From: a virus
DNA length: 33,024 bases
Virus record (IMG/VR): IMGVR_UViG_3300034073_001260
Coordinates: 1 to 33,024 of that record
Reading direction: 5' to 3' (one strand)
The translations under genes were made by a program, and so were the position numbers. Below the pieces are notes generated by a model. That model saw only the letters and a program-made list of their open reading frames with translations. It did no database searches and was not told the DNA's origin. Positions 2,736 through 23,190 of this stretch are shown piece after piece; the first letter of the stretch is position 1; each line of letters opens with the position of its first letter.

Positions 2736-3098
2736 GTGGACTGGATCCTGTCGTTTCCGAAGAAGCCACTGAACACGAATGCAGAGCGCAGAGGGAACAG
2801 ATTCGGTAGGGCAGATCACGTGAAGGAGTGGAGGGGAGCGTTTTATTGGCTCGCTAAGAAAGAAAAAATCCCACGCATGAAGTGGATCAATGTAACGGCG
2901 CAACCGTTTCAAGCACGAGGACGGTTGGCAGACACGGCAGCATGTAACCCGTCTGTGAAGGCCGCGATTGATGGGCTCGTAGATGCAGGGATTGTTCCTG
3001 ACGACACTGGGGAATACGTGCGTAAGATCACGTTTCTACCAGTGCAGAGGGGTGCAGATCAGTTGACACTAATCATTCAAGGAGAACCACATGCCTAG
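2736..3098 (+). CDS. RusA-like Holliday junction resolvase
   Basis: The 120-residue length fits RusA, a dimeric enzyme that cuts four-way DNA junctions. The core reads 'GRLADTAACNPSVKAAIDGL' followed by VDAGIVPDD, placing acidic residues (LAD, IDG, PDD) where RusA has its metal-binding aspartates. In many RusA proteins the first motif is R-x-D-x-D-N; here it is A-D-T-A-A-C-N, so one acidic residue seems replaced. Start GTG 2736 is nine bases after the HNH stop. Together with the Gam-like and Rad52-like genes it completes a recombination set. Confidence 0.75.
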   Translation: MDWILSFPKKPLNTNAERRGNRFGRADHVKEWRGAFYWLAKKEKIPRMKWINVTAQPFQARGRLADTAACNPSVKAAIDGLVDAGIVPDDTGEYVRKITFLPVQRGADQLTLIIQGEPHA

Positions 3099-3855: not shown

Positions 3856-4464
3856 ATGGGAGAGAAATTCAACGCGATGAATGTGGAATCCGTGAAAATG
3901 GATTCGCTAAAAATTGATGATCGCAACGCCCGTAAAGGCAACATCTCCGCAATCGTTGAGAGCCTGGAAGAGTTCGGGCAGCACCGTCCAATCGTGGCGC
4001 AGCGTAAGACGAAAAAGATCATTGCGGGTAATCACATGTTCCGTGCGGCTCAAGCACTGGGCTGGGATACGATCAACGTTTATTGGGTAGATGACGATGA
4101 CACCACAGCGATTCGACGTAGCCTCGCGGATAACGCGACAGGTAATCTCGCTACGTGGGATGAGGATGTACTTGCAGAACTGTTGTCAGAAACTGGATCA
4201 GTTCCGGGTATTGATGAGTCGTTGTTGCAGAAGTTGACAGAAGTCCTAGACAAAGAAGTTCACGAGAAGCCGATCTTTCCGATTGTTGCCCGTGTGAATG
4301 AGAAATACGATTTCGTAATCGTTGTGGCGAAGAGTGAAATTGACACTGTGTGGATGTACGAGAAGTTCGGACTGAGAACAGAACAATCGTACAAAGGGCC
4401 AAAGACTGCACGTAGTCACGTTGTGACTGTTGAGAGATTGCAGGAGTTATGGAAGAACTCGTAA
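3856..4464 (+). CDS. ParB/sulfiredoxin-fold protein, second copy
   Basis: The 202-residue protein repeats the ParB-type domain (DDRNARKGN, GQHRPIV, AGNHMFRAAQALGW, SLADNATGNLATWDED). It then adds a C-terminal domain beginning KPIFPIVARVNEKYDFVIVV and ending in a Y-K-G...V-V-T-V-E-R-L-Q-E-L-W helix. That second domain is typical of phage ParB-like proteins found beside base-modification enzymes. A strong GGAGG lies 5 bases before ATG 3856. It overlaps the glycosyltransferase gene by 16 bases. The tandem arrangement suggests duplication and specialisation. Confidence 0.8.
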   Translation: MGEKFNAMNVESVKMDSLKIDDRNARKGNISAIVESLEEFGQHRPIVAQRKTKKIIAGNHMFRAAQALGWDTINVYWVDDDDTTAIRRSLADNATGNLATWDEDVLAELLSETGSVPGIDESLLQKLTEVLDKEVHEKPIFPIVARVNEKYDFVIVVAKSEIDTVWMYEKFGLRTEQSYKGPKTARSHVVTVERLQELWKNS

Positions 4465-5190: not shown

Positions 5191-5391
5191 ATGAAAGTGG
5201 AAGTCAAAGAAGTCGCGTTTGTTTCCGCTGGAGATGGTGGTACACGCCCGGTGTGGATGTGGGCTATCTCAGTAGATGGTGACTGGTATGAGGCTTATCG
5301 TGATGAAGAAACGGCGCGAGAAAAGGCCCAAAGATACTTGATGCTAGGGGATCTGCTCGCTACAATGAAGGAGACACAAACGACAGATTGA
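5191..5391 (+). CDS. Hypothetical protein (66 aa)
   Basis: A 66-residue beta/alpha protein with a 'WMWAISVDGDWYEAYRDEETAREKAQRYL' core: an aromatic strand pair followed by a charged helix, a layout common in small phage proteins. It starts two bases after the glycosyltransferase stop and ends in the leader of the next gene, so it belongs to the same operon. Not recognised. Confidence 0.6.
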   Translation: MKVEVKEVAFVSAGDGGTRPVWMWAISVDGDWYEAYRDEETAREKAQRYLMLGDLLATMKETQTTD

Positions 5392-6511: not shown

Positions 6512-8058
6512 TGTCCCTGGTGGATGAGATTGTTCGGGCTAACCCGGAAGATCGGGCACGCCTGTTCTCGTCCCTTGACCAGCGGGAACGTCAGGCTGTG
6601 TTGCGGGCTCTTGACGATGAGATCTCTAATCCTTGGGCGAAGTACCGTGAGGATCCTGTTGGTTTCGTGACTGGGGCTCTAGGCGAACATGTCTGGTCGA
6701 AGCAGGTAGAGATCCTGGAATCGCTGTTGACGAACCGTAGGACTGCTGTTCCGGCATGTCACGCTCCTGGCAAATCTCATATCGCGGCTCGTGCTATCGC
6801 ATGGTGGGTGGCAGTTCATGATCCCGCTAAGACGAGGGTAGTGACTACGGCGAATACGTACCGTCAGGTGAAGGGCATTCTTTGGCCTCACATCCGTCGC
6901 GTGGTGAATCTTCACGGGCTGCCTGGTGAAGTGTTTACGACTGAGTGGAAGATTGACAACGTGGTTGTGGCGGACGGCTTCTCACCGTCGGATCACAATG
7001 AGACTGCTGTGCAGGGTATCCACGCTGAGAATCTGCTCGTGGTGGTGGATGAGGCTGGGGGTATTTCGAACACGATCGGGCAGGCACTTGAGGCGTTGAT
7101 GACTGGCGGCAACACCCGGTTGTTGCTGCTGGGTAACCCTCCAACGGACAACATGGGCTCGTGGTTCGAACGGGCCTGCAACAGTGACCTGTTCAATGTG
7201 ATCCCGATTTCGGCGTATGACACTCCTAACTTCACTGGCGAACCTGTTGGCCCGTGGGCTCGTAACCTCGTGGATCAGACGTGGGTGGATGACGTGATCC
7301 GCTCGTTCGGTGAGGAGTCGGCTTTCGTTCAGGCTCGTGTGTGGGCGAGATTCCCCAGGACTACGGAGAACGCGGTGATCCCGATTTCGTGGGTGGATCA
7401 GGCTCGTACGTGGCAGGCTCCGGAAGGTGGAATCCGGTTGGGTGTGGACGTTGCTGCTGATGGTGGCGATGAGTTCGTGATCGCTAAGGCTGATGGAATG
7501 CACGTCAAGGTAGTGCATGGATCCCGTGGCAATAAGAATCCGGTGGAAGTGGCAGGCACTGTGCTGCGGCACATCCTGGAGGCAGAGAAGATCCACGAGG
7601 AGCGTCGGATCCCGGATCGTGTGCGGGTGAAGATTGACTCCATCGGTGTCGGCTGGGGTATCTGTGGATTGCTGGAAGAGTGGGGCAAGGAGGGCCGTCA
7701 CCACTCGGACGTGATCGCGGTGAACGTGGCGCAGTCACCTCATGACAAAGAGAAGTTCGCCAATCAGCGGGCTGAAATGTGGTGGGCAATGCGGGAACTG
7801 TTGCAACCGGATGAGCACGGCGAGCAGACCGTATCGCTAGGGATAGACCACAAAGAGGTTGCTCAGTTGACTGCTCCTTCGTACAAGTCCAACTCGTCAG
7901 GCCGCATACAGATCGAATCGAAGGCTGACATGTCTGCGCGAGGTATCGGATCTCCTGACCGGGCTGAGGCTCTGCTGCTGGCTGTGTTTGAACCTCCCCG
8001 GCACGTGATTCCGGATGTGGCTCCGTTGTCGTTACCTGGCACGAATAGTTGGATCTAG
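6511..8058 (+). CDS. terL: Terminase large subunit (ATPase-nuclease)
   Basis: The 515-residue motor protein cuts concatemers and pumps DNA into the prohead. The Walker A box is ACHAPGKS (residues 82-89), a variant with a non-glycine first position. The Walker B box is LLVVVDEAG with D180 and E181. The C-terminal RNase H-like nuclease shows aspartates at D313 (LGVDVAADGG), D376 (VKIDSIG) and D483 (GSPDRAEA). Length and order are complete. GTG 6511 overlaps the small subunit stop, indicating coupling. Confidence 0.95.
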   Translation: MSLVDEIVRANPEDRARLFSSLDQRERQAVLRALDDEISNPWAKYREDPVGFVTGALGEHVWSKQVEILESLLTNRRTAVPACHAPGKSHIAARAIAWWVAVHDPAKTRVVTTANTYRQVKGILWPHIRRVVNLHGLPGEVFTTEWKIDNVVVADGFSPSDHNETAVQGIHAENLLVVVDEAGGISNTIGQALEALMTGGNTRLLLLGNPPTDNMGSWFERACNSDLFNVIPISAYDTPNFTGEPVGPWARNLVDQTWVDDVIRSFGEESAFVQARVWARFPRTTENAVIPISWVDQARTWQAPEGGIRLGVDVAADGGDEFVIAKADGMHVKVVHGSRGNKNPVEVAGTVLRHILEAEKIHEERRIPDRVRVKIDSIGVGWGICGLLEEWGKEGRHHSDVIAVNVAQSPHDKEKFANQRAEMWWAMRELLQPDEHGEQTVSLGIDHKEVAQLTAPSYKSNSSGRIQIESKADMSARGIGSPDRAEALLLAVFEPPRHVIPDVAPLSLPGTNSWI

Positions 8059-9186: not shown

Positions 9187-9548
9187 GCAAGATGACCAAA
9201 GAAGAGAAGCAAGCCCGCATCGCTCACCTACGCGAGATCGCTAAGGCGTACGAGGAGGGTGTGGATCCGGAGCAGATCGTGAAGGAGTATCCGGCACTCG
9301 TAGCCCGTTATTCGATCCGGAACGTGTTTCTGATCCTGGCGCAGCGTCCAAGCGCGACGGAGTGTGCAGGCTTCCATGACTGGAAGCACGTGAACCGTCA
9401 GGTGTCGAAGGGGGCGAAGGGCATCGCAATCCTTGTGCCGATGAAGGGCAAGGATGAGGACGGCGAAGAGGGTCGTTTGTGGTTCACTTGGAGATACGTG
9501 TTCGACATCGCTGACACGGAGCCCGTTGAGGGAGAGGTTGCAGCATGA
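9183..9548 (+). CDS. ArdC N-terminal-domain-like antirestriction protein
   Basis: The 121-residue protein matches the single-stranded DNA binding N-terminal domain of ArdC/LtrC proteins. It has a helical lead-in, then 'YSIRNVFLILAQRPSATECAGFHDW', followed by VNRQVSKGAKGIAILVPM and a W-F-T-W-R-Y-V-F-D strand. Full-length ArdC has a C-terminal metallopeptidase domain that is absent here, so this is a stand-alone DNA-binding version. ArdC proteins protect incoming plasmid DNA from restriction; antirestriction here is inferred. Confidence 0.7.
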   Translation: MSKMTKEEKQARIAHLREIAKAYEEGVDPEQIVKEYPALVARYSIRNVFLILAQRPSATECAGFHDWKHVNRQVSKGAKGIAILVPMKGKDEDGEEGRLWFTWRYVFDIADTEPVEGEVAA

Positions 9549-9742: not shown

Positions 9743-9873
9743 GAGGTAAGCGATGGTTGTGGAATAGGAATGATCGTGCCGATTACGGAACGCGAGACGT
9801 TTTTGAGAGTCTCAGGGGCTCAAAGCGGCATCACTGTGCCGATTGTGTTACCGACAGGAGAAGTCGTGACTGA
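9739..9873 (+). CDS. Basic CxxC microprotein (44 aa)
   Basis: ATG 9739 overlaps the preceding stop. The 44-residue peptide is rich in Arg (MRGKRWLWNRNDRADY) and has H-H-C-A-D-C. It competes with a longer frame starting at ATG 9770. The coupled start at 9739 plus a good ribosome site for GTG 9866 favour this peptide followed by the 39-residue gene. Confidence 0.4.
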   Translation: MRGKRWLWNRNDRADYGTRDVFESLRGSKRHHCADCVTDRRSRD

Positions 9874-9985
9874 TGATCAACTGTCGTTTACCGACGAGGA
9901 ACTGTTCATCGCTCAGGAACTCTGGTCGTTAGTGGAGCAGGCGCGGCAGCGCGGTACGTGGATCTTCGACAAGGAGAAGTCATGA
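9866..9985 (+). CDS. Hypothetical protein (39 aa)
   Basis: GTG 9866 has AGGAG at 9856-9860, a better start than ATG 9770, which would give 71 residues but lacks a proper ribosome site. The product (DDQLSFTDEELFIAQELWSLVEQARQRG) is one long acidic-to-basic helix. It overlaps the HTH gene by 4 bases. Not recognised. Confidence 0.5.
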   Translation: MTDDQLSFTDEELFIAQELWSLVEQARQRGTWIFDKEKS

Positions 9986-11347: not shown

Positions 11348-11848
11348 ATGCGAAGCCTGATAAACGCAATAATCGCAACACTGTTTTTGATCTTGACAAC
11401 TACAACAGCACAAGCGGCAACACCGCCGCCCGTGGATCCACCGGGCAAGGTTGAGGGGAAACAACCGTCCGCATACCGTGGAAAGTTCTACATCTCATCT
11501 CAAGAGCCGTATCGCATGTGTGTGGCACAGCGAGAAGGCCGTCATCAGTATTGGGTGACTGGATCTAACGGCACGTATTTGGGTACGTATCAAATGACAC
11601 ATGCACTCGCTAAGGGCGCAGTGTGGATGATCACTCCTGAACTCAAGCGCATGTTTGAGAAAGAGCAAGGTAAGAAGATCCGTGATGAACTGTTCGCAAC
11701 TAAGCCGACTAAGTGGAATCGGTTCTACTGGGATATGGCGTTCTTCACTGTCTTGAACTGGGAGCATCCTGGATCTGGTGCGAATCATTGGGCAGGCGGC
11801 AGATTCTCGTGCCGCATCGGTATGTCAGATTGGGGTGGCGACAGATGA
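11348..11848 (+). CDS. Exported transglycosylase/lysozyme-like protein
   Basis: The 166-residue protein starts with a Sec signal peptide (MRSLINAIIATLFLILTTTT, cleavage after AQA). The mature part has the lysozyme/Rpf-like pattern: C-V-A-Q-R-E-G with a candidate catalytic Glu, then NGTYLGTYQMTHALAKGAVW, and a second Cys near the end (FSCRI) for a disulfide. It probably cleaves peptidoglycan outside the membrane. The start at ATG 11348 is supported by TTGGAG upstream. It may be a signal-exported endolysin, or a cell-wall factor changing the infected host. No holin is adjacent. Confidence 0.6.
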   Translation: MRSLINAIIATLFLILTTTTAQAATPPPVDPPGKVEGKQPSAYRGKFYISSQEPYRMCVAQREGRHQYWVTGSNGTYLGTYQMTHALAKGAVWMITPELKRMFEKEQGKKIRDELFATKPTKWNRFYWDMAFFTVLNWEHPGSGANHWAGGRFSCRIGMSDWGGDR

Positions 11849-15398: not shown

Positions 15399-17141
15399 GT
15401 GTTGATCGTGAAGGCGCGTCGCCGCACGAATCCGGTTCACATCGCTGGCCCAACAGAGTCAGGCAAGCGGATCATGCGTGTCCTCTCGTCGGCTATGAAC
15501 AGCATCAGAGATCAGGTCGCTCGTAATGAGGGCGTGTATCTTGACGCGATACAACACAGGTCATCTCAGGCTGTCGCTGACATGGTTCCCACGCAACCGT
15601 GGTTCGAAGCGCAGGAGAAGATTGAGCAGGAGTTGTACGTTGAGGTGCTGGACGGCGGCTCCAGGGTCAAGTTGCCTGCTATCCGTAAAGAGGTGCTTCT
15701 CTTCTCGTTCGACCGTTCCCGGCCTGAGGCGGCAGATTGGGCGAGGAAAGAAGCGGCTCAACTGGTCACGAATGTTGTTGAGGATCAGAGGACTGTTATC
15801 CGCGGCATGGTCGCTCAGTCCCTGGAAGGTGGCATGGCCCCACGGGACGTTGCACGTGGCCTCAGGAATGTCATAGGGCTCACTCAGGGGCAAGAAGGCT
15901 GGGTGTCTAATCACTACAACCGGGCTGTTGATTCGGGTCTCCAACGCGGTCTATCTGTTGCGAGGGCTACGGAGTTGGCTCAGAGATCCACGGACAGATA
16001 CCACGACCGGGTGTTCCGTTATCGGACGGAGACGATAGCCCGGACGGAGATCATGCGAGCCACTCATGAGGGTCGTCGTGAAGCGTGGGCTCAGGGCATT
16101 GAAGGTGGATGGATAAGTGTCCTAGCGGAGAAGGAGTGGAGTGCTGAGGCTGTTGCCTGTCAGATCTGCTCACCGATGGACGGCATCATCGTGCCGATCA
16201 ATGGCTCGTTCAGCATTGGAGATCCTCCTGCTCACCCGAACTGTCGTTGCGATGTTCTCCTGGTGGATAGGCCAGACAGGGATCTAGCGGCATTGCAGCC
16301 CGCGCAGATTGATGAACTGATTGAAGAGATCGTCGGCACTGGCATTCGTCCTGGCATGGGTGACGGCACTGTCATCCCGGAGGCTGACTTCATTGCGATG
16401 CAGCAGTCGTCGGCTGGCCCGTACATGACTGGTCGGGCTCCCGATGGTGCTCCGTTGTGGGATCCGGTACGAGCACGACTGCATGATGAGATTGTTGACC
16501 GTTTCGTTTCACGAGTTCCTCGTAGCGAGAAGCCGACGTACAACATGATGGGTGGCGGGCCTGCATCGGGGAAGTCAACGATGGAGAAGAAAGTGTTTGG
16601 CGAGGCGCGTGGTCAGGCTGTGAAGATTGATCCTGATGAGATCAAGAAACTGCTACCGGAGTATCGGGACATGGTTGCTGCTGGTGATGACAATGCGGCA
16701 GCGTTTGTGCATGAGGAGTCCTCGTATTTGGGTAAGAGGATTTTGAAGGCAGCGCAGGAACGCCGTCAGGACATTGTTTTCGATGGTGTGGGTGACGGTA
16801 ACCCTGATAGTGTCCTTAGTCGTATTGCTACGGCTCGCGCTAACGGCTACGAGGTCAAGGGCTACTACGTGACGATCCCCACGGATGAGGCAGTTGCACG
16901 TGCTACTGCGCGGGCTGCTAGAACTGGACGTGTAGTACCGGAGTCAACGATCAGGTCTCAGCACGCTGCGGTGTCACGAGTGTTGCCGGAGATTGCTGAG
17001 GAGTTTGATGAGGTGCAGTTATTCGACAACACGACAACGTTGAAGTTGATCGGTGAGGGAAGTAGAGGGAGATTCAAAGTGTTAGACGATGAAGCGTACG
17101 ACAGTTTCCTTGGGAAGGCGGCTGACAATGGCATCCGCTAA
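15399..17141 (+). CDS. MuF-type minor head protein fused to a zeta-toxin-family kinase
   Basis: The 580-residue protein joins two parts. Residues about 1-290 are a MuF-like head morphogenesis protein with a C-Q-I-C pair (254/257) and the diagnostic DPPAHPNCRC box (275-284). Residues about 375-560 are a zeta-toxin/PezT-type P-loop kinase: GGGPASGKST around 385-394, VKIDPDEIKKLLPEY, then DGVGDG and an Arg-rich segment ATARAARTGRVVP. Zeta enzymes phosphorylate UDP-N-acetylglucosamine-type precursors and block wall synthesis. MuF-toxin fusions are known as polymorphic toxins carried by phage heads. No frameshift is seen at the junction. The fused kinase may be injected with the DNA, or act on the host before release. 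Confidence 0.85.
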   Translation: MLIVKARRRTNPVHIAGPTESGKRIMRVLSSAMNSIRDQVARNEGVYLDAIQHRSSQAVADMVPTQPWFEAQEKIEQELYVEVLDGGSRVKLPAIRKEVLLFSFDRSRPEAADWARKEAAQLVTNVVEDQRTVIRGMVAQSLEGGMAPRDVARGLRNVIGLTQGQEGWVSNHYNRAVDSGLQRGLSVARATELAQRSTDRYHDRVFRYRTETIARTEIMRATHEGRREAWAQGIEGGWISVLAEKEWSAEAVACQICSPMDGIIVPINGSFSIGDPPAHPNCRCDVLLVDRPDRDLAALQPAQIDELIEEIVGTGIRPGMGDGTVIPEADFIAMQQSSAGPYMTGRAPDGAPLWDPVRARLHDEIVDRFVSRVPRSEKPTYNMMGGGPASGKSTMEKKVFGEARGQAVKIDPDEIKKLLPEYRDMVAAGDDNAAAFVHEESSYLGKRILKAAQERRQDIVFDGVGDGNPDSVLSRIATARANGYEVKGYYVTIPTDEAVARATARAARTGRVVPESTIRSQHAAVSRVLPEIAEEFDEVQLFDNTTTLKLIGEGSRGRFKVLDDEAYDSFLGKAADNGIR

Positions 17142-17346
17142 TGATGTTTCCCGGATCACGGCTGAGATCGCTAACGGAGTGCTGAAGCAAGACTCCACCG
17201 TCACGTTGACTGATGAACTGTCAGCATTGTGGGATCAGATAGAAATGGAGATCGCGGAGATCAGAGCCCGTGGGCTAATTGTTGAGATCCCTGGCGAGAT
17301 GCCAGACGTTCAACTACTTTCACCCGACTCCATCGTTGAGCCGTAG
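17128..17346 (+). CDS. Hypothetical protein (72 aa), candidate partner of the MuF-zeta protein
   Basis: ATG 17128 has GGGAAGG upstream and lies inside the end of the fusion gene (14-base overlap). The 72-residue product is helical (LTDELSALWDQIEMEIAEIRARGL) with an acidic Pro-rich tail. Its coupling to a toxin-like gene makes it a candidate antitoxin or immunity protein, but it has no obvious resemblance to epsilon/PezA antitoxins and could equally be a head assembly factor. Confidence 0.55.
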   Translation: MASANDVSRITAEIANGVLKQDSTVTLTDELSALWDQIEMEIAEIRARGLIVEIPGEMPDVQLLSPDSIVEP

Positions 17347-17357
17347 AATAGGTCTTT
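17344..17357 (+). promoter_or_regulatory. -10 box before the capsid protease gene
   Basis: TAGAAT at 17344-17349 overlaps the preceding stop codon. Eight bases follow before ATG 17358; the only purine tract is a weak AGG. Leaderless or nearly leaderless initiation is likely. Confidence 0.4.
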
Positions 17358-19301
17358 ATGGATCTGCTTGAACGCATCAATGCCCTCACGGACGATCAAC
17401 TCAGAATGATCGCTGACCGTGATGATGCTTCCGGCGTGCTCGCTTCTTACCGTTTAGCGGAACTCAGAGGGCTACCAGCACCAGAGCGCAGTGTCGTGAT
17501 CATGGGTGACGGGTATGCGATTGTTGCTCAGGACGGCAAGATTTCGAAGATCCCGACAGAGGGTGTAGCGAAGATCATCCGTCAAGAGGGCAGCCAATAC
17601 TGTGTGTATTCGGAGGACGGTTCTCAGTCGTTCGGCTGCTATGACAGCATGGAGCAGGCTCAGGAGCGTTTGCGGCAGATTCACTCGTTCGGCAATGAGG
17701 CAGAGAAGGCTGTCCATGAGGGCTCATTCGTTTCTTGGAATTCCAGTGGCGGTCGTGCGCGGGGCCGTGTTGAGCATGTGATGACTGAGGGAACTCTCGG
17801 AGTCCCTGGCTCGTCGTTCAGCATTGACGCTACTCAAGAAGATCCTGCTGTGTTGATCCGGATTTGGCGTGAGGGCTCAGAGGGCTGGCAGGAGACAGAG
17901 ACTCTCGTTGGTCACCGGATGAGCACGTTGACGCAGATTGAACCGTTGAACCGTAGCGCGGTCGGGAAGGCGACTAAGCGTGAAGATGGTGAGGACTTCC
18001 CAGCGGAAGCGTTCGCATACGTGCCGGATCCAGAGCGAGTCTCTACGTGGAAACTGCGACTGTGGGATTCGTTGTCGGAGAAAGAAACTAAGGCTCAGGT
18101 GGCTCGCGCTGTTCAAGCGTTGAGCCCATCAGGTTTCCGTGGCAACCGTGTTCAGATCCCGGCTGCTGATCTTCCAGGGGTCAAGCGGAAGGTGCTGGCA
18201 GCGTGGCGGAAGGTCAATGAACCTGATGCTGAGATCCCGGCAGTGTTGAAAGCGATGCTGGTGAAGGAGACGTTCAAGCCCCCTCAGGGAGTCCAGGACG
18301 CTGCGGAGCGTGCTCTTGAATGGATCAGGGAAGGCCACGCAGGTTCGGGCTTTACAGACGTTGGTAGGGCTCGTGCAGCGCAACTGGCACGGGGCGACAA
18401 TGTTTCGGAGCAGACGATCCGCCGCATGGCCTCGTACTTTGCGCGTCACGAGGTGGATTCACAGGCTGAGGGCTGGAGTAGCGGCGAGGATGGTTTCCCG
18501 TCACCAGGCCGTGTCGCTTGGGATGCTTGGGGTGGTGATCCTGGCAGGACTTGGGCGAATAGCATCGTTGACCGTCTTGAGAAGGATGGTGTCGCTCTGA
18601 CACCTCGGCAGAACCTGTTGTACGAGTCGTATGAGCAGGTGGCGGAAGTGTTTGGTCTGTTCGGCCCGGATGACGGCCCGGACGGTGCTCACTACATGGA
18701 GGAGAATCCGTTCAACCGGAACGGGATCAACTGTGCTAACTGTGTGTTCTACCAGGGTGGAGGCGGCTGCGAGATCCTCAACATTGAAGTGAACCCTGAC
18801 GCTGTTTGTAAGTTTTGGATCATCCCGAATGACCGTCTCGTCAAGGCAATGGACGTGGATAAGGCAGCGTTCGTGCGGAAGGCAGATGAGTCCAGGTTCA
18901 CGCTTGGCCCGTTGTATGTCCCGGATTTCATGGACGCTCACGGCGAGTGGACATCAGCGGATGAGTTGCAGCCTGCCGTCTGGGAGTGGGTGAAGTCAGG
19001 TGATCGTCGGATCTTCTTGCAGCATGACCGTGAGGTTGAGGCTGGTGAGTGGGTCGAAGTGATGACGATGCCGCAGGAGTGGACTGTCACGATGCGCGAC
19101 GCGGCGGGTAACGCGCTGGGGCAGGTCACCTATCCACGTAACACGGTGTTCCTGGGCGTGCAGTGGAATGAGAAGGCTTGGCAAGACGTAAAGGCAGGCC
19201 GTTTGCGCGGCTACTCCATTGGCGGTTTCAGTGACCGGATCCTCGCTGATCTTCCCGACTCTGCAATGCGGGAAGGGTTAGAGATCCCGACTGGCGATTG
19301 A
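17358..19301 (+). CDS. Multidomain capsid maturation protease (XkdF-like)
   Basis: The 647-residue protein contains several recognisable parts. A YCVYSEDGSQSFGCYDS module lies near residues 80-110. A small barrel (FVSWNSSGGRARGRVEHV, about 121-190) resembles the hypervirulence-associated Tudor-like domain. A 'WKLRLWD...FRGNRVQIPAADLPGVKRKV' module follows. A helical part has the segment FPSPGRVAWDAWGGDPGRTW. A Cys cluster (NCANCVFY...C...C, about 458-487) looks like a metal or iron-sulfur knuckle. The XkdF-like serine protease domain (FTLGPLYVPDFMDAHGEW, IFLQHDREV, WNEKAWQDVKAGRLRGYSIGGF) occupies about 514-630. It should process scaffold or capsid precursors. Much longer than a simple protease. 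Confidence 0.82.
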   Translation: MDLLERINALTDDQLRMIADRDDASGVLASYRLAELRGLPAPERSVVIMGDGYAIVAQDGKISKIPTEGVAKIIRQEGSQYCVYSEDGSQSFGCYDSMEQAQERLRQIHSFGNEAEKAVHEGSFVSWNSSGGRARGRVEHVMTEGTLGVPGSSFSIDATQEDPAVLIRIWREGSEGWQETETLVGHRMSTLTQIEPLNRSAVGKATKREDGEDFPAEAFAYVPDPERVSTWKLRLWDSLSEKETKAQVARAVQALSPSGFRGNRVQIPAADLPGVKRKVLAAWRKVNEPDAEIPAVLKAMLVKETFKPPQGVQDAAERALEWIREGHAGSGFTDVGRARAAQLARGDNVSEQTIRRMASYFARHEVDSQAEGWSSGEDGFPSPGRVAWDAWGGDPGRTWANSIVDRLEKDGVALTPRQNLLYESYEQVAEVFGLFGPDDGPDGAHYMEENPFNRNGINCANCVFYQGGGGCEILNIEVNPDAVCKFWIIPNDRLVKAMDVDKAAFVRKADESRFTLGPLYVPDFMDAHGEWTSADELQPAVWEWVKSGDRRIFLQHDREVEAGEWVEVMTMPQEWTVTMRDAAGNALGQVTYPRNTVFLGVQWNEKAWQDVKAGRLRGYSIGGFSDRILADLPDSAMREGLEIPTGD

Positions 19302-19307
19302 TGCGCG

Positions 19308-19319
19308 TACACTTAGCGT
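19308..19319 (+). promoter_or_regulatory. -10 box of a likely leaderless transcript
   Basis: TACACT at 19308-19313, six bases, then ATG 19320, with no Shine-Dalgarno sequence; identical hexamer and spacing to the site before 14019. Confidence 0.45.
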
Positions 19320-19526
19320 ATGGCGCGTAAGATCCGGGTTGGCACGACTGAGCCTGTGCTTGTTGATGGTCGGATCCGGCATTGTGTTGTTGAGGGTGTG
19401 ACTGATCAGGACACGATCACTGTGCGGCTTGGGTCGAATGACAAGGTGATTGATGGGGAGTCGTCGGAGTTCGGTGCTACTCGTGCGGCTTCGACTACGA
19501 CTAGGGGCTTTCTGTTCCAGGCTTAG
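19320..19526 (+). CDS. Hypothetical beta-rich protein (68 aa)
   Basis: A 68-residue protein of alternating short strands (VGTTEPVLVDGRIRHCVVEGVTDQDTITVRLGS) with a Thr/Ser-rich C-terminus. Its position after the capsid protease suggests a small head-associated protein, but no family is recognised. Confidence 0.6.
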   Translation: MARKIRVGTTEPVLVDGRIRHCVVEGVTDQDTITVRLGSNDKVIDGESSEFGATRAASTTTRGFLFQA

Positions 19527-19550
19527 TCCCCCTATGCGACACGGATAATT

Positions 19551-19650
19551 CGGACATTTAGGTCAATTTCTGTTTTCCACTTGACACTCCTCCCCCGTGG
19601 CACTAACGTAGGGGTCATGAGGGGTCGGGAAGATATCCCGGCAGGAGGGA
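19551..19650 (+). promoter_or_regulatory. Accessory-gene promoter module 3 with leader stem-loop
   Basis: CGGACATTT (19551-19559), TTGACA (19581-19586), a 17-bp spacer and TAACGT (19604-19609) form the promoter. The leader continues with GAGGGG, then the stem CGGGA (19626-19630)/TCCCG (19636-19640) around AGATA, extendable by a G-T and a G-C pair. AGGAGG (19643-19648) is the ribosome site for ATG 19656. Confidence 0.75.
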
Positions 19651-19655
19651 AGAAA

Positions 19656-19793
19656 ATGATCACCACACAGGGCGAGATGATTGACGAAGCCATTGAACTT
19701 GCCAAGGCCGTCAAAGGATTGAACATCAGCGTTGCCGGGGATCGGGACGCGCTTGAAGTTGCTAAGGCTGTTCGCGGCCTGAATATCAAGTAG
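19656..19793 (+). CDS. Microprotein with internal duplication (45 aa)
   Basis: The 45-residue peptide contains two near-identical halves, AIELAKAVKGLNI and ALEVAKAVRGLNI, separated by a short linker. Their codons differ at many third positions, so the repeat is old and kept at protein level. It has a strong ribosome site after module 3. Its stop codon overlaps the first base of the hammerhead ribozyme. Function unknown; a two-fold symmetric binding surface is a reasonable guess. Confidence 0.65.
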   Translation: MITTQGEMIDEAIELAKAVKGLNISVAGDRDALEVAKAVRGLNIK

Positions 19794-19851
19794 TCGAAAC
19801 CCCTTCGGGGGTCGTGCGGGGATCGCCTACCGCACCTGATGAGACAGGCGA
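19793..19851 (+). ncRNA. Type II hammerhead self-cleaving ribozyme with pseudoknot
   Basis: All core bases of a hammerhead are present in type II order. GTC (19793-19795) is half of stem II, then GAA (19796-19798). Stem III is ACCCC (19799-19803) with loop TTCG and GGGGT (19808-19812), giving the GUC cleavage triplet ending at C19813. Stem I is GTGCGG (19814-19819)/CCGCAC (19830-19835). CTGATGA (19836-19842) follows, then GAC (19843-19845), which closes stem II. The stem I loop contains TCGCCT (19823-19828), complementary to AGGCGA (19846-19851): the pseudoknot known from bacterial type II hammerheads. Predicted cleavage is between 19813 and 19814. The ribozyme begins in the upstream stop codon and ends three bases before the next ribosome site. 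Confidence 0.9.
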
Positions 19852-19867
19852 CAGGGGAGGGAACAAA

Positions 19868-20014
19868 ATGATCACCGTAAAGAAGATCAAAAGCGGCAGT
19901 CAGTATCGTGAATTTGACTATGCGGTTTACAACTGCGGCGTAGAAATCTTTCACACAGACAACATGACCGAAGCGCAGTACGTGGCTTCGTGGGCAAAGA
20001 TGCAGGAGGCGTAG
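19868..20014 (+). CDS. Hypothetical protein (48 aa)
   Basis: The 48-residue product (KKIKSGSQYREFDYAVYNCG, then a MTEAQYVASWAKMQ helix) has a beta-hairpin plus helix plan. ATG 19868 follows GGGGAGGG (19854-19861), which starts three bases after the hammerhead pseudoknot, so folding or cleavage of the ribozyme should influence its translation. Not recognised. Confidence 0.65.
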   Translation: MITVKKIKSGSQYREFDYAVYNCGVEIFHTDNMTEAQYVASWAKMQEA

Positions 20015-20016
20015 TC

Positions 20017-20163
20017 ATGATGGTTCAACTGCCTGAGATCGGCCCGATTGTTCGCTGCACGTACGCGGAGCAGCATGGCGAAGATCCCATCGCGCACACG
20101 AATTTGCTGGAAGGGTTAGCGTTCTGTGCTAACTGCGGGGCCACTGATCACAAGGAAATGTGA
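20017..20163 (+). CDS. Zinc-binding microprotein (48 aa)
   Basis: ATG 20017 follows AGGAGG at the end of the previous gene. The 48-residue product has one Cys near residue 14, His residues (EQHGED, IAH) and a C-A-N-C-G knuckle, compatible with one zinc site. Function unknown. Confidence 0.6.
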   Translation: MMVQLPEIGPIVRCTYAEQHGEDPIAHTNLLEGLAFCANCGATDHKEM

Positions 20164-20173
20164 GGGGAACGTG

Positions 20174-20389
20174 ATGAAAGAATCGTGGATCAAAGTAGCC
20201 GCAACCAATCGCGGTTGGGCTATCGGACTCCTGGAGGTCAAGAACCGTTACACGGGAGATCCGATCTATCAGGTCGCTCGCATCAATCCTCAGGACAAAT
20301 ACCTGGTGTTGTTTCAGAGTGAAGATCTGGCAGAGGCACGCGCGGCAGCCAACAGTGAGTGGGATGCGGAGGTGAAGGCAGCGTCATGA
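20174..20389 (+). CDS. Hypothetical protein (71 aa)
   Basis: ATG 20174 (or GTG 20171) follows GAGGGGAA. The 71-residue product has alternating strands (WIKVAATNRGWAIGLLEVKNR, IYQVARINPQDKYLVLF) and a C-terminal helix (SEDLAEARAAANSEWDAEV), the strand-strand-helix plan seen in several small genes of this phage. It overlaps the next gene by 4 bases. Confidence 0.6.
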   Translation: MKESWIKVAATNRGWAIGLLEVKNRYTGDPIYQVARINPQDKYLVLFQSEDLAEARAAANSEWDAEVKAAS

Positions 20390-20730
20390 AGAGTGTAGTT
20401 CTGGAGAAGAGCCGTCACGGTGATCTGCCAGGTGTGGCTGAGAAGGTGCAGGTCAGTGCGACAAAGATCCTGCTTGGCGGTCAGATGTACAGGATCACGT
20501 ACACGCCTGCTGATGGGATCTCCAGGCGAGAGTTCGGCGGGCCGTGCGTTCCCGGCCCGTACGCTGCGCTCTTCCCGCTGGCTACTGTGATTGACGGCGG
20601 CATGATCAGGGACGCTGATCCCGTCGTTCCGGCTGAGTTCGGGGACGTTGTTGAAATGGACGGGCTCAAGTGGAGGGTCGTGGAGGACGCGACACGCGGT
20701 TGGCCGAAATTGCAGGTTATTGAGAATTGA
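20386..20730 (+). CDS. Hypothetical beta-rich protein (114 aa)
   Basis: The 114-residue protein is mostly beta structure: ATKILLGGQMYRITYTPADG, then VPAEFGDVVEMDGLKWRVVED. It resembles small barrel proteins with a D-G-x-x-W-x-V-V-E-D strand. No family is recognised. It is coupled to the previous gene through ATGA. Confidence 0.6.
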   Translation: MKSVVLEKSRHGDLPGVAEKVQVSATKILLGGQMYRITYTPADGISRREFGGPCVPGPYAALFPLATVIDGGMIRDADPVVPAEFGDVVEMDGLKWRVVEDATRGWPKLQVIEN

Positions 20731-20744
20731 CGGGGACTACCCGC

Positions 20745-20775
20745 TACACTGGGAATGTGGTCACGAGGGGTGACC
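20745..20775 (+). promoter_or_regulatory. Candidate -10 box and leader stem-loop
   Basis: TACACT (20745-20750) precedes a leader that folds GGTCAC (20759-20764)/GTGACC (20770-20775) around GAGGG. GAGGGG then serves ATG 20793. Here the Shine-Dalgarno-like GAGGG lies in the loop. No convincing -35 box at 17-18 bp; a TTGACG at 20728 is too close. Confidence 0.45.
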
Positions 20776-20792
20776 GGAAAGCGAGGGGCAAG

Positions 20793-21134
20793 ATGGACGA
20801 GCGTATGGCTGCGATCCTGGAGCAAGAAATGGCTGTTGAGCAGTCGTTCGAAATGTTGGCGGCTTTCGGGCCTGGAGCCACTGTGGTGGACGTGATCACG
20901 GGGAAGCAATACAAGACCCCAGGCCGTTCACCTAAGCCTGTTACGGGCCGCTATGAGGTGCAGCGGAAGATCAGTAACCGCGTTACCGGGTACAAGAATG
21001 GCAAGCCTCAACGTCCGTGGGACTGGCACGTGGTTGACGGTGACGGCAAGATCGTCGTGACTCACGAGATGAAGGTCAAGGCGGAAGCCGATTGCGCGGC
21101 GTTGAACAGCGGGAAGGGGATCTCACCGTGGTGA
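20793..21134 (+). CDS. Hypothetical protein (113 aa)
   Basis: The first third is helical (MDERMAAILEQEMAVEQSFEML). Then come VVDVITGKQYKTPGRSPKPVTGRYEV and a basic strand region ending in WDWHVVDGDGKIV, and a helix. ATG 20793 after GAGGGG is used rather than the upstream in-frame ATG, which lies in the promoter. Not recognised. Confidence 0.6.
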   Translation: MDERMAAILEQEMAVEQSFEMLAAFGPGATVVDVITGKQYKTPGRSPKPVTGRYEVQRKISNRVTGYKNGKPQRPWDWHVVDGDGKIVVTHEMKVKAEADCAALNSGKGISPW

Positions 21135-21352
21135 GCCAGGATCTTTTCCAAGGGACGCTGCATCCGGAGTACGTGAGCCTCCGGAACATGGAGCCCGACG
21201 CTGACACGCTCACGTTCGACTCATTCGATCAGGCCGCTGAGTACATCCGTAAGACCACGGAGGAGTTCAGCGTCACGTTCAAGCCACGCGGGGCTCTCCC
21301 CGGCCTGTGGTTCACTGTTTGGGAAATGCCGTGGAAGGATGCAGGCCAATGA
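21128..21352 (+). CDS. Hypothetical protein (74 aa)
   Basis: GTG 21128 or GTG 21131 starts this gene; AAGGGG at 21114-21119 fits the first better. The product has an acidic middle helix (FDSFDQAAEYIRKTTEEF) between strands and a Trp-rich end (GLWFTVWEMPWKD). Coupled to its neighbours by short overlaps. Not recognised. Confidence 0.55.
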   Translation: MVSQDLFQGTLHPEYVSLRNMEPDADTLTFDSFDQAAEYIRKTTEEFSVTFKPRGALPGLWFTVWEMPWKDAGQ

Positions 21353-21453
21353 GACTCACAAAGCGCGGCGAAACTGTCGTCTGTTACGCGGCACTCTTCG
21401 TTTTCCTAGTCGTTCTGGGATTCGCAGGGTGGCTTGAGAACCTGGGCTACTGA
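21349..21453 (+). CDS. Single-span membrane microprotein (34 aa)
   Basis: The 34-residue peptide has a basic N-terminus (MRLTKRGE) and one hydrophobic segment (VVCYAALFVFLVVLGFAGWL), so it should be a single-span inner membrane protein. It overlaps the preceding stop (ATGA). Too short for a typical holin; possible lysis or superinfection role is a guess from context. Confidence 0.6.
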   Translation: MRLTKRGETVVCYAALFVFLVVLGFAGWLENLGY

Positions 21454-21486
21454 CCGTCAGAGCCCGTACCCTGTAAGGAGGGGGAA

Positions 21487-21801
21487 ATGAAGAAGATCAT
21501 CGCAGCGGCAACTGCCGCCATTGTGGGCACACTGTTGCTCGCTCCTCCAGCATCTGCTGGTGTTCAAGATGACAAGTTGTTTTACAAACTTGTGACCGCT
21601 GAGGCTCCGGCTTTGAAACAGGTCACGAGAAAGCAACTCGTCAAGACCGCTAAGGAAACGTGCAAGTTCTTGCGAGCAGGATTCGGCATCATGGATGCTG
21701 TTGATCTCGCTGAGGATGCTGGGCTGACTCAGAATGAGGCAACGGCAATGGTCGCTGGGGCTGTTGTTTTCTACTGTCCAGAGCAGGAGAACAACTGGTA
21801 A
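21487..21801 (+). CDS. Secreted DUF732-like protein
   Basis: The 104-residue protein has a clear signal peptide (MKKIIAAATAAIVGTLLL, cleavage after ASA). The mature part has two cysteines (KETCKFLRAG and FYCPEQ) placed as in DUF732, a small exported helical family common in mycobacteria and relatives. Strong ribosome site GGAGGGGG. In a phage it may be a host-altering (moron-type) gene; a terminator follows at once, supporting an independent cassette. Confidence 0.7.
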   Translation: MKKIIAAATAAIVGTLLLAPPASAGVQDDKLFYKLVTAEAPALKQVTRKQLVKTAKETCKFLRAGFGIMDAVDLAEDAGLTQNEATAMVAGAVVFYCPEQENNW

Positions 21802-21813
21802 CCGCATAGGTTT

Positions 21814-21844
21814 GCTGACACGATCCCCCCCCCTCTGTGTCAGC
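21814..21844 (+). other. Stem-loop with C-rich loop
   Basis: GCTGACAC (21814-21821) pairs perfectly with GTGTCAGC (21837-21844) around a 15-base loop containing nine consecutive C residues. It sits between the DUF732-like gene and the terminator. A second hairpin with a similar GATCCCCCC...TCT loop lies at 32583. Confidence 0.7.
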
Positions 21845-21850
21845 GCAGAT

Positions 21851-21890
21851 CACCCCGTCACTTGGGAAGCGTGGCGGGGTGTTTCTGTTG
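21851..21890 (+). terminator. Rho-independent terminator
   Basis: CACCCCGTCAC (21851-21861) pairs with GTGGCGGGGTG (21871-21881), 11 pairs with one G-T wobble, around a 9-base loop, followed by TTTCTGTT. It ends the second accessory block before the capsid operon. Confidence 0.8.
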
Positions 21891-21916
21891 TCATGTGGGC
21901 TCCTCTCGTGACGGTG

Positions 21917-21939
21917 TATTATTAGACGGACGTAGGAGG
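21917..21939 (+). promoter_or_regulatory. Candidate promoter -10 box for the capsid operon
   Basis: TATTAT (21917-21922) follows the terminator and precedes AGGAGG (21934-21939) of the scaffold gene. No clear -35 box at the normal distance, so a phage- or activator-dependent promoter is possible. Confidence 0.4.
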
Positions 21940-21945
21940 TGTGAC

Positions 21946-22791
21946 TTGGCACGTAAAGCCCCAAAGATGACGGAACTCGTTATTGAGGAAACGTCTGGCG
22001 TGGATCATCCCGCGCACTTGCACGAAGGGTGGCTGGTGGTCAAGGCCGCAGACACGGCAACCGTGGCAGATGTGGAACGCGCACTGCCGGAACCGTTAGG
22101 AGAAGGTATGTCAGAAGAAGTCACGGAGACCGTGGCGGAGGACGCTGAGGTGCGTCTTGAAGCCGCTGAGGTCGAAGCCCAAGAGGGTGAAGGCGGTGCA
22201 GGCGAAGGCGGCATGGAAGATGAACTTGCTATGGCGCAGGCTCGCATTGCCGAACTGGAAGCCCGTATTGCTGAGATGGAATCCGCCGCTGGTGAGGCAG
22301 ACATGATGGAAGAGGCCGCAGAGCCGTCCGTTGAGGATCTTGCCAAGTCCGCATCGGAGCCCATCCGCAAGATGCTGCTGGATCTCCAGAAGGAGCGGGA
22401 TGAAGCCGCCGCTGAATTGCAGAAGGAGCGGGATGACCGCGCTGACGCTGAGGCTGTTGCTAAGGCTCGTGAGACCTTCAAGCATCTGAATGTGGATGCG
22501 GAGAAGATCGGCCCCGCTCTGCGTCGGCTGGAACTCCAGGACGCTGATCTCGCGAAGTCCGTGGAAGAGGCTCTTGCTGCTGCTGATGCACAGAGCGAAT
22601 CCGCTGGGATCTTCCAGGAGATCGGTAAGGCTGCCCCCGTTGCGACTGGGGATGCCTACGAGAAGATGACTTCCCTCGCGAAGGCGGCAGTAAGCGAGGG
22701 CAAGGCGGCAACGGTTGAGCAAGCAATTGCAGAGATCGCCGTCAGTAATCCTGCCCTCTATGTTGATTACCTGAGCGAGAAGGGAGCCTGA
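21946..22791 (+). CDS. Capsid scaffolding protein
   Basis: The 281-residue protein starts at TTG 21946, six bases after AGGAGG. An N-terminal ETSGVDHPAHLHEGWLVVKA segment, common in phage head maturation proteins, is followed by a long acidic, Glu/Ala-rich coiled coil (MAQARIAELEARIAEME; LDLQKERDEAAAELQKERDD) and a helical C-terminus that should contact the capsid. Composition, coiled coil and position just before decoration and capsid genes support scaffolding. It is probably cut by the XkdF-like protease. Confidence 0.8.
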   Translation: MARKAPKMTELVIEETSGVDHPAHLHEGWLVVKAADTATVADVERALPEPLGEGMSEEVTETVAEDAEVRLEAAEVEAQEGEGGAGEGGMEDELAMAQARIAELEARIAEMESAAGEADMMEEAAEPSVEDLAKSASEPIRKMLLDLQKERDEAAAELQKERDDRADAEAVAKARETFKHLNVDAEKIGPALRRLELQDADLAKSVEEALAAADAQSESAGIFQEIGKAAPVATGDAYEKMTSLAKAAVSEGKAATVEQAIAEIAVSNPALYVDYLSEKGA

Positions 22792-22794
22792 GAC

Positions 22795-23190
22795 ATGGCT
22801 TACGAGTTCTCAAATAGTGCGATCAAGGCGTCGTTCGTCGCTGGTGGCGATCTGTCGTCCGCACAATACAAGTTCGTCAAGTTGGACTCTGACGGCGAAG
22901 TTGTAGTGGCTGCTGCTACTACCGATCGTCCTGTCGGTGTTCTCCAGAACGCCCCCTCCAGTGGTCAGATTGCGGAGGTCACCATCGCTGGTGGCTCCAA
23001 GGTCGTCGCTGGTGGCAACGCAAGCGTCGGAAATCCGGTGTTCACCTCGGCTTCCGCAACTGCGGTGACCGCGACTGTCGGTTCTGCCGCATCTACGTTC
23101 TATGTTCTCGGCACATTCCTTGAGGATGCTGCTGCGGGCCAGATCGTTTCCGCTGTCGTCAACTGCGCCAACAGTGGGCGCGGAGCATAA
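22795..23190 (+). CDS. DUF2190-like capsid decoration protein
   Basis: The 131-residue beta-rich protein shows the DUF2190 pattern: a 'GGDLSSAQYKFVKLDSDGEVV' opening, DRPVGVLQNAPSSGQIAEVTIAGGSKV and a repeated small-residue strand pattern. Proteins of this type form cement spikes on HK97-type capsids. It lies between scaffold and major capsid genes, as usual. Confidence 0.8.
   Translation: MAYEFSNSAIKASFVAGGDLSSAQYKFVKLDSDGEVVVAAATTDRPVGVLQNAPSSGQIAEVTIAGGSKVVAGGNASVGNPVFTSASATAVTATVGSAASTFYVLGTFLEDAAAGQIVSAVVNCANSGRGA

Follow-up and report, generated by a model that had tools for sequence, protein, structure and literature searches.

A polycistronic phage mRNA is probably split between two small genes, of 45 and 48 amino acids, and most likely constitutively, by a self-cleaving hammerhead of type II whose loop I takes part in a pseudoknot. 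The ribozyme lies at positions 19793-19851 of the window, by which we mean the whole stretch of DNA analysed, an IMG/VR virus record of 33,024 bases. Its sequence and structure, the covariation of its helices, and the rule of position and strand that it follows in relatives are observed directly.

The ribozyme and its genomic setting

As the sequence and the list of open reading frames (ORFs) show, the hammerhead is flanked by two genes that run in the same direction, and is itself on their coding strand. Its parts and neighbours are the following.

19656-19793, plus strand: upstream gene of 45 amino acids (sequence, ORF list), whose TAG stop codon at 19791-19793 overlaps the first ribozyme base
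19793-19851, plus strand: type II hammerhead with pseudoknot (RF02276, 35.0 bits; R2 model, 70.6 bits; 0 in 60 shuffles)
19793-19795, plus strand: 5' strand of stem II, GTC, pairing with 19843-19845 (the Rfam alignment pairs two of the three)
19796-19798, plus strand: conserved core GAA (sequence, Rfam alignment)
19799-19812, plus strand: stem III, 5 bp, A19799-C19803 with G19808-T19812, cap TTCG at 19804-19807
19811-19813, plus strand: cleavage triplet GTC, predicted cut C19813/G19814 (sequence and established hammerhead chemistry)
19814-19835, plus strand: stem I and its loop, GTGCGG at 19814-19819 with CCGCAC at 19830-19835, 6 bp
19823-19828, plus strand: loop I half of the pseudoknot, TCGCCT, pairing with 19846-19851
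19836-19842, plus strand: conserved core CTGATGA (sequence, Rfam alignment)
19843-19845, plus strand: 3' strand of stem II, GAC (sequence)
19846-19851, plus strand: 3' half of the pseudoknot, AGGCGA (covariation in relatives)
19854-19861, plus strand: purine-rich ribosome site GGGGAGGG, belonging to the 48-aa gene (sequence)
19868-20014, plus strand: downstream gene of 48 amino acids, ATG at 19868 (sequence, ORF list)
20017-20163, plus strand: third small gene, whose relative in L073 (96% amino acid identity) has its own hammerhead directly 5'

The core contains CUGANGA, GAA, the A15.1-U16.1 pair and an NUH triplet; stems I and III are closed and stem II is open, and loop I pairs over 6 bp with the tail after stem II. 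Stem III reads A19799-CCCC-TTCG-GGGG-T19812. The ribosome site of the downstream gene starts 2 nt 3' of the pseudoknot, and its GGAGG core 4 nt 3' of it. An earlier sequence-only reading had proposed a type II hammerhead with this pseudoknot between two phage genes, with 6, 3 and 5 pairs in stems I, II and III, a TTCG cap and the coordinates listed here, all of which are borne out by the sequence, by the R2 score and by the covariation described below.

When the whole window was searched against 4227 Rfam families, RF02276 was the sole match at E ≤ 1, with 35.0 bits and an E-value of 0.0012. The family's gathering score, 37 bits, is not reached, so that a gathering scan of the window is empty. 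The sequence-only reading had named a covariance score below threshold as grounds for refutation, and taken literally the score does fall below it; we do not read this as a refutation, because a covariance model (R2) built from 34 relatives, with the window and its nearest relatives excluded, gives the ribozyme 70.6 bits (E 3.7e-16). A second model, R1, includes the window. The gathering cut-off reflects a curator's choice rather than the structure of the RNA. Searched on both strands with a generic type II descriptor, the window gave one match and 60 dinucleotide shuffles gave none. The folding energy of the ribozyme gave no signal against background (z 0.00) in a calculation without pseudoknots. 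A candidate second copy in the window, an R2 match at 11533-11595 on the minus strand (13.9 bits, E 0.33), was judged to be due to chance.

By its head genes the window is closest to Arthrobacter phages (58.6% amino acid identity for the major head protein, 52-53% for the terminase), and on these comparisons it would be an Arthrobacter-like phage. The hammerhead sits inside a block of small genes, with no function assigned, that is bounded by the head protease gene (17358-19301) on one side and by head genes, from 22795 onward, on the other. Searches of PHROG and Pfam returned no match for either the 45-aa or the 48-aa gene. The latter has one relative, identical to it, in L129, part of an IMG/VR contig of 45,306 bases; L129 is identical to window positions 16868-23011 over 6144 bases, and this contig and the window are probably the same virus. 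Each of the two holds one hammerhead copy, and four Arthrobacter/Microbacterium relatives of the window have no type II hammerhead, so this type of phage does not need the ribozyme. The L073 relative of the third small gene, 90% identical, adjoins a hammerhead, and the window hammerhead stands one gene earlier. A promoter scan detected nothing promoter-like on the plus strand close to the ribozyme.

Some observations concern the neighbouring genes themselves. The 45-aa protein (19656-19793) has an internal repeat, AIELAKAVKGLNI / ALEVAKAVRGLNI, spotted by eye. At 15399-17138 a minor head protein, with Phage_Mu_F at residues 176-286, is joined to a Zeta_toxin kinase-like domain (residues 373-550, E 1e-33). 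The head protease combines Peptidase_S78_2 (residues 505-628) with a TUDOR-like Hva1 domain (122-168); instead of the latter, a 2H phosphoesterase domain precedes the protease in its Arthrobacter relatives. A link to RNA repair was considered, since the PHROG labels 'RNA ligase' (17358-19301) and 'polynucleotide kinase' (15399-17141) suggested enzymes for 5'-OH and cyclic-phosphate ends. Both labels were rejected on the Pfam results: the match behind the first label falls within Peptidase_S78_2, and what the other gene carries is the Zeta_toxin domain. Head-gene synteny with another stretch, L004, was likewise rejected, as the matches are domain-level only. Outside the hammerhead block, 130 bases at 9856-9985 are 89% identical to L073 11374-11503.

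Covariation and position among relatives

Viral contigs were scanned with a pattern that fixed the core and stem II, so that only stem I, the length of stem III and the pseudoknot count as evidence in this set, a sample of at least 119 stretches. Collapsing identical ribozymes reduced it from 161 to 150, and nine identical ribozymes were common to more than one record. Among the matches listed, 156 of 161 relatives have at least 5 pairs in stem III and 153 of 161 have at least 4 in stem I, while at least 5 pseudoknot pairs form in 126 of 161, compared with 29% when tails are permuted between matches. In an ungapped alignment of stem I and the pseudoknot (67 stretches among the matches listed, 65 of them distinct), 89.9% of cells are paired. 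The covariation score of the 65 distinct relatives is 0.762, against 0.199 when shuffled and 0.07-0.11 when slid. In these 65, stem I is paired in 98.2% of cells and the pseudoknot in 81.5%, with both-side changes in 6/6 pairs of each; the outermost pseudoknot pair, 19828-19846, is unpaired in 33/65. The stem III cap is UUCG in 41 and GNRA in 21 of the 150 unique relatives among the matches listed, which fits the idea of a hairpin kept for stability without proving it. At E ≤ 0.01, one search with R1 gave 153 matches in 65 sources, and another gave 108 in 59. The downstream genes have no common family among 113 proteins, the commonest PHROGs matching 6 of the 113.

A looser descriptor, without the GTC/GAC constraint, produced 218 matches in 117 records, which collapsed to 200 unique ribozymes. 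The end of an upstream stop codon falls at -3 to +5 nt from the ribozyme in 132 of the 200, compared with 24 of 907 shifted positions, and a start codon with a ribosome site follows the pseudoknot by 4-30 nt in 151 of the 200, compared with 99 of 907; these distances derive from simple ORF rules and not gene calls, the lack of a passing ORF counts as a miss, and the control uses shifted positions instead of ribozyme-free gaps, a control by which compaction and selection are not separable. In none of the 47 multi-copy records are the copies found split between the two strands. The relatives thus suggest a packing rule, in which the ribozyme is placed between a stop codon and a ribosome site.

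When the ribozyme and the sequence at its borders served as query for a distant search, 35 of the 43 records matched were Streptomyces phages. R4, Paedore, Salutena and Diane, from three genera of Arquatrovirinae, carry 9, 12, 12 and 9 Rfam copies, respectively, at E ≤ 0.001 across their whole genomes. All 42 copies are on the minus strand, at about 37.9-51.0 kb, and 40 of them reach the gathering score. In a joined list of 43 copies, 40 are followed by an ORF of 35 amino acids or more, which starts 10-21 nt 3' of the ribozyme in 34 cases. Six copies of this list stand 5' of the same gene family in all four phages, and one R4 copy is located 5' of an OCR-like antirestriction gene.

Two observations bear on the annotation of these phages. 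Six annotated R4 genes, gp81, gp76, gp75.1, gp72, gp67.1 and gp60.1, overlap hammerheads (1611-1673, 3015-3091, 3912-3976, 5260-5325, 6864-6928 and 9232-9296 of the R4 stretch, L121), which makes their starts or their existence doubtful, and these annotations need to be checked on both points; the Paedore counterparts of gp81, gp76 and gp72 start 3' of the ribozyme. Furthermore, an ORF of 31-34 amino acids (LLD.R...FFRR) lies between two hammerheads and is conserved in 4/4 R4-like phages (L121 2893-2988, L122 3118-3213, L123 6284-6388, L124 2543-2647). A small RNA excised by such a pair of hammerheads, 150-210 nt apart, was considered and rejected, because this ORF fills the stretch in all four.

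The stop codon adjacency is the basis of the strongest alternative, a translation-coupled switch, in which a ribosome terminating at the TAG at 19791-19793 would cover the 5' strand and delay folding, so that cleavage would report upstream translation. The sequence-only reading had proposed logic of this kind. Since stop and ribozyme adjoin in most relatives, a ribosome terminating there would overlap the 5' strand, and the one-base TAG overlap of the window recurs in 54 of 156 matches with a stop found, among the matches listed. However, compaction explains the adjacency too. An upstream stop was found for 195 of the 200 unique relatives and is inside the ribozyme in only 6 of the 195, as overlap-free compaction would likewise predict. 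In the R4-like phages, where stops were sought over the 60 nt 5' of the ribozyme and its first 6 nt, the stop is 0-5 nt upstream in only 14 of 42 copies and 0-20 nt upstream in 29 of 42, with the farthest at 56 nt. Moreover, the predicted accessibility of the ribosome site is unaltered by cleavage. We regard translation-coupled regulation as possible but unproven, and as the explanation of this ribozyme it seems improbable.

Near-identical ribozymes also occur between unrelated genes. Between the window and another stretch, L112, the ribozymes share 98.3% identity, while the 250-base flanks score like unrelated DNA; the common stretch spans 19792-19874, from the stop codon through the start codon. 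Of the 64 pairs between records that reach 85% identity, 46 show no flank homology on either side; these pairs were picked for high identity, so that strong constraint could mimic transfer. Across 88 high-identity pairs, identity is at background from -3 upstream and mostly past +6 downstream. Copies in one record are more alike, with 18% of within-record pairs at least 80% identical, against 1.7% otherwise. On these alignments, the pattern looks like an exchange of gene-border cassettes.

The drop of identity just outside the ribozyme would also be expected of a recombination linker, a short recurring gene-border sequence serving homologous gene swaps, with RNA activity as a by-product. Against this account stand the compensatory changes in stem I and the pseudoknot, which imply selection on RNA structure that is not required of a DNA linker, and the restriction of copies to one strand. 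We consider it decidedly unlikely. A broader reading, in which type II hammerheads are a general phage gene-border cassette (stop codon, ribozyme, ribosome site) that is passed between unrelated genes and splits long transcripts into single-gene mRNAs with a hairpin at each new end, is tentative, and we would lean against it for now. If true, the cassette would be an RNA-only phage counterpart of RNase processing sites.

Splitting of the transcript

Hammerhead cleavage yields an upstream piece with a 2',3'-cyclic phosphate and a downstream piece with a 5'-OH. According to the splitting reading, which we prefer, the phage transcript would be cut after C19813, the predicted site. The upstream mRNA would then carry the stem III hairpin at its end, together with a 2',3'-cyclic phosphate, and the downstream mRNA would open with a 5'-OH on stem I, with the pseudoknot intact and the ribosome site directly after it. 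With the type II order of stems both hairpins would survive the cut; the pseudoknot is located wholly inside the 3' product of the predicted cut, and it has been found to form in the long strand alone (Perreault et al., PMC3088659). After the cut the two messages would have separate fates, and their decay may be slowed by the hairpin that each has at its new end. Cleavage, its timing, the protection of the ends and a benefit to the phage are what we infer.

Splitting is supported by the complete core and stems, the covariation, the position between stop codon and ribosome site, the one-strand copies, the conservation in R4-like phages and the published precedents. The suggestion of the sequence-only reading that the mRNA is divided here is in line with the position, the strand and the relatives, with cleavage as a prediction. 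Counting against it are the Rfam score below the cut-off, the presence of a single copy each in the window and in the 45,306-base contig, the absence from four Arthrobacter relatives, and the finding that 4 of 18 consensus-conforming hammerheads assayed by Perreault et al. were inactive (PMC3088659).

The inactivity of some published consensus hammerheads, together with the close ribosome-site spacing in many relatives, could also favour a non-cleaving structured 5' leader, acting in ribosome loading or mRNA stability, or a decayed ribozyme. This is slightly less probable still than the linker: no core base is altered in the window, and in the joined list of 43 R4-like copies, found without a fixed core pattern, CTGANGA is intact in 42/43 and CGAAA in 43/43.

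The least credible alternative, that the ribosome site of the downstream gene is paired with CCCC of stem III until cleavage releases it, agrees with the energy-minimum fold of 19760-19900, in which these two pair, but can practically be dismissed, as cleavage changes the unpaired probability by a median of +0.008 (n=153 relatives, Wilcoxon p 0.011, in a model without pseudoknots), the mean moves from 0.556 to 0.588 in these 153, and the value for the window falls from 0.63 to 0.54. The same median, along with a pseudoknot that stays wholly in the 3' product, speaks against the earlier suggestion that the folded ribozyme crowds the ribosome site as a cleavage switch. Splitting of the mRNA, most likely constitutive, is the reading that we retain.

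Comparison with known systems

Type II hammerheads with a loop I pseudoknot were described by Perreault et al. in 2011 (PMC3088659), in agreement with the statement of the sequence-only reading that they are known from bacteria and phages. That paper reports hammerhead clusters that flank prophage genes, puts forward the cutting of long phage transcripts as an idea, and shows that three prophage arrays cleave in vitro and that one does so in E. coli. The type II kind, the pseudoknot, the prophage arrays and the mRNA-splitting idea were accordingly known from the available text of that paper. What our analysis adds is the packing rule, the R4-like arrays, the near-identical ribozymes between unrelated genes and the absence from four Arthrobacter relatives. 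We found no account of the stop-to-ribosome-site packing or of the R4-like arrays in a full-text search mostly of journals free of subscription, and they may be in print elsewhere.

The role of hammerheads in phages has been a question since 2011, and the positional rule in relatives makes a sharp test possible. R4 is a cultured phage of Streptomyces coelicolor, with nine copies on one strand, several of them 5' of the same genes in related phages; the packing rule and the R4 system together make this old question easy to test.

With the Rfam family RF02276 (Hammerhead_II), the window ribozyme has in common the stem order, the core, the pseudoknot between loop I and the tail, and the phage intergenic setting. 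It differs from the family in stem III, which is shorter and capped by UUCG, and in its 3-bp stem II, GTC/GAC, where the consensus has 2 bp. The prophage arrays of Azorhizobium, Agrobacterium and Clostridium scindens are likewise located at gene borders on the transcript strand, with single-gene mRNA cutting as their proposed role, whereas the window holds one copy; stop-to-ribosome-site packing is not stated for these arrays in the available text of the source (PMC3088659). The R4-like arrays resemble the window in being type II, intergenic and 5' of ribosome sites, but they comprise 9-12 Rfam copies with mostly other stem II pairs, GTG starts and looser stop spacing. Finally, the hammerhead of the haloarchaeal viruses HF1/HF2 has a variant core and belongs to an archaeal virus; like that of the window it is near a start codon, 13 nt upstream of it, and there an mRNA 5' end has been mapped at most 3 nt from the hammerhead cleavage site (PMC3088659).
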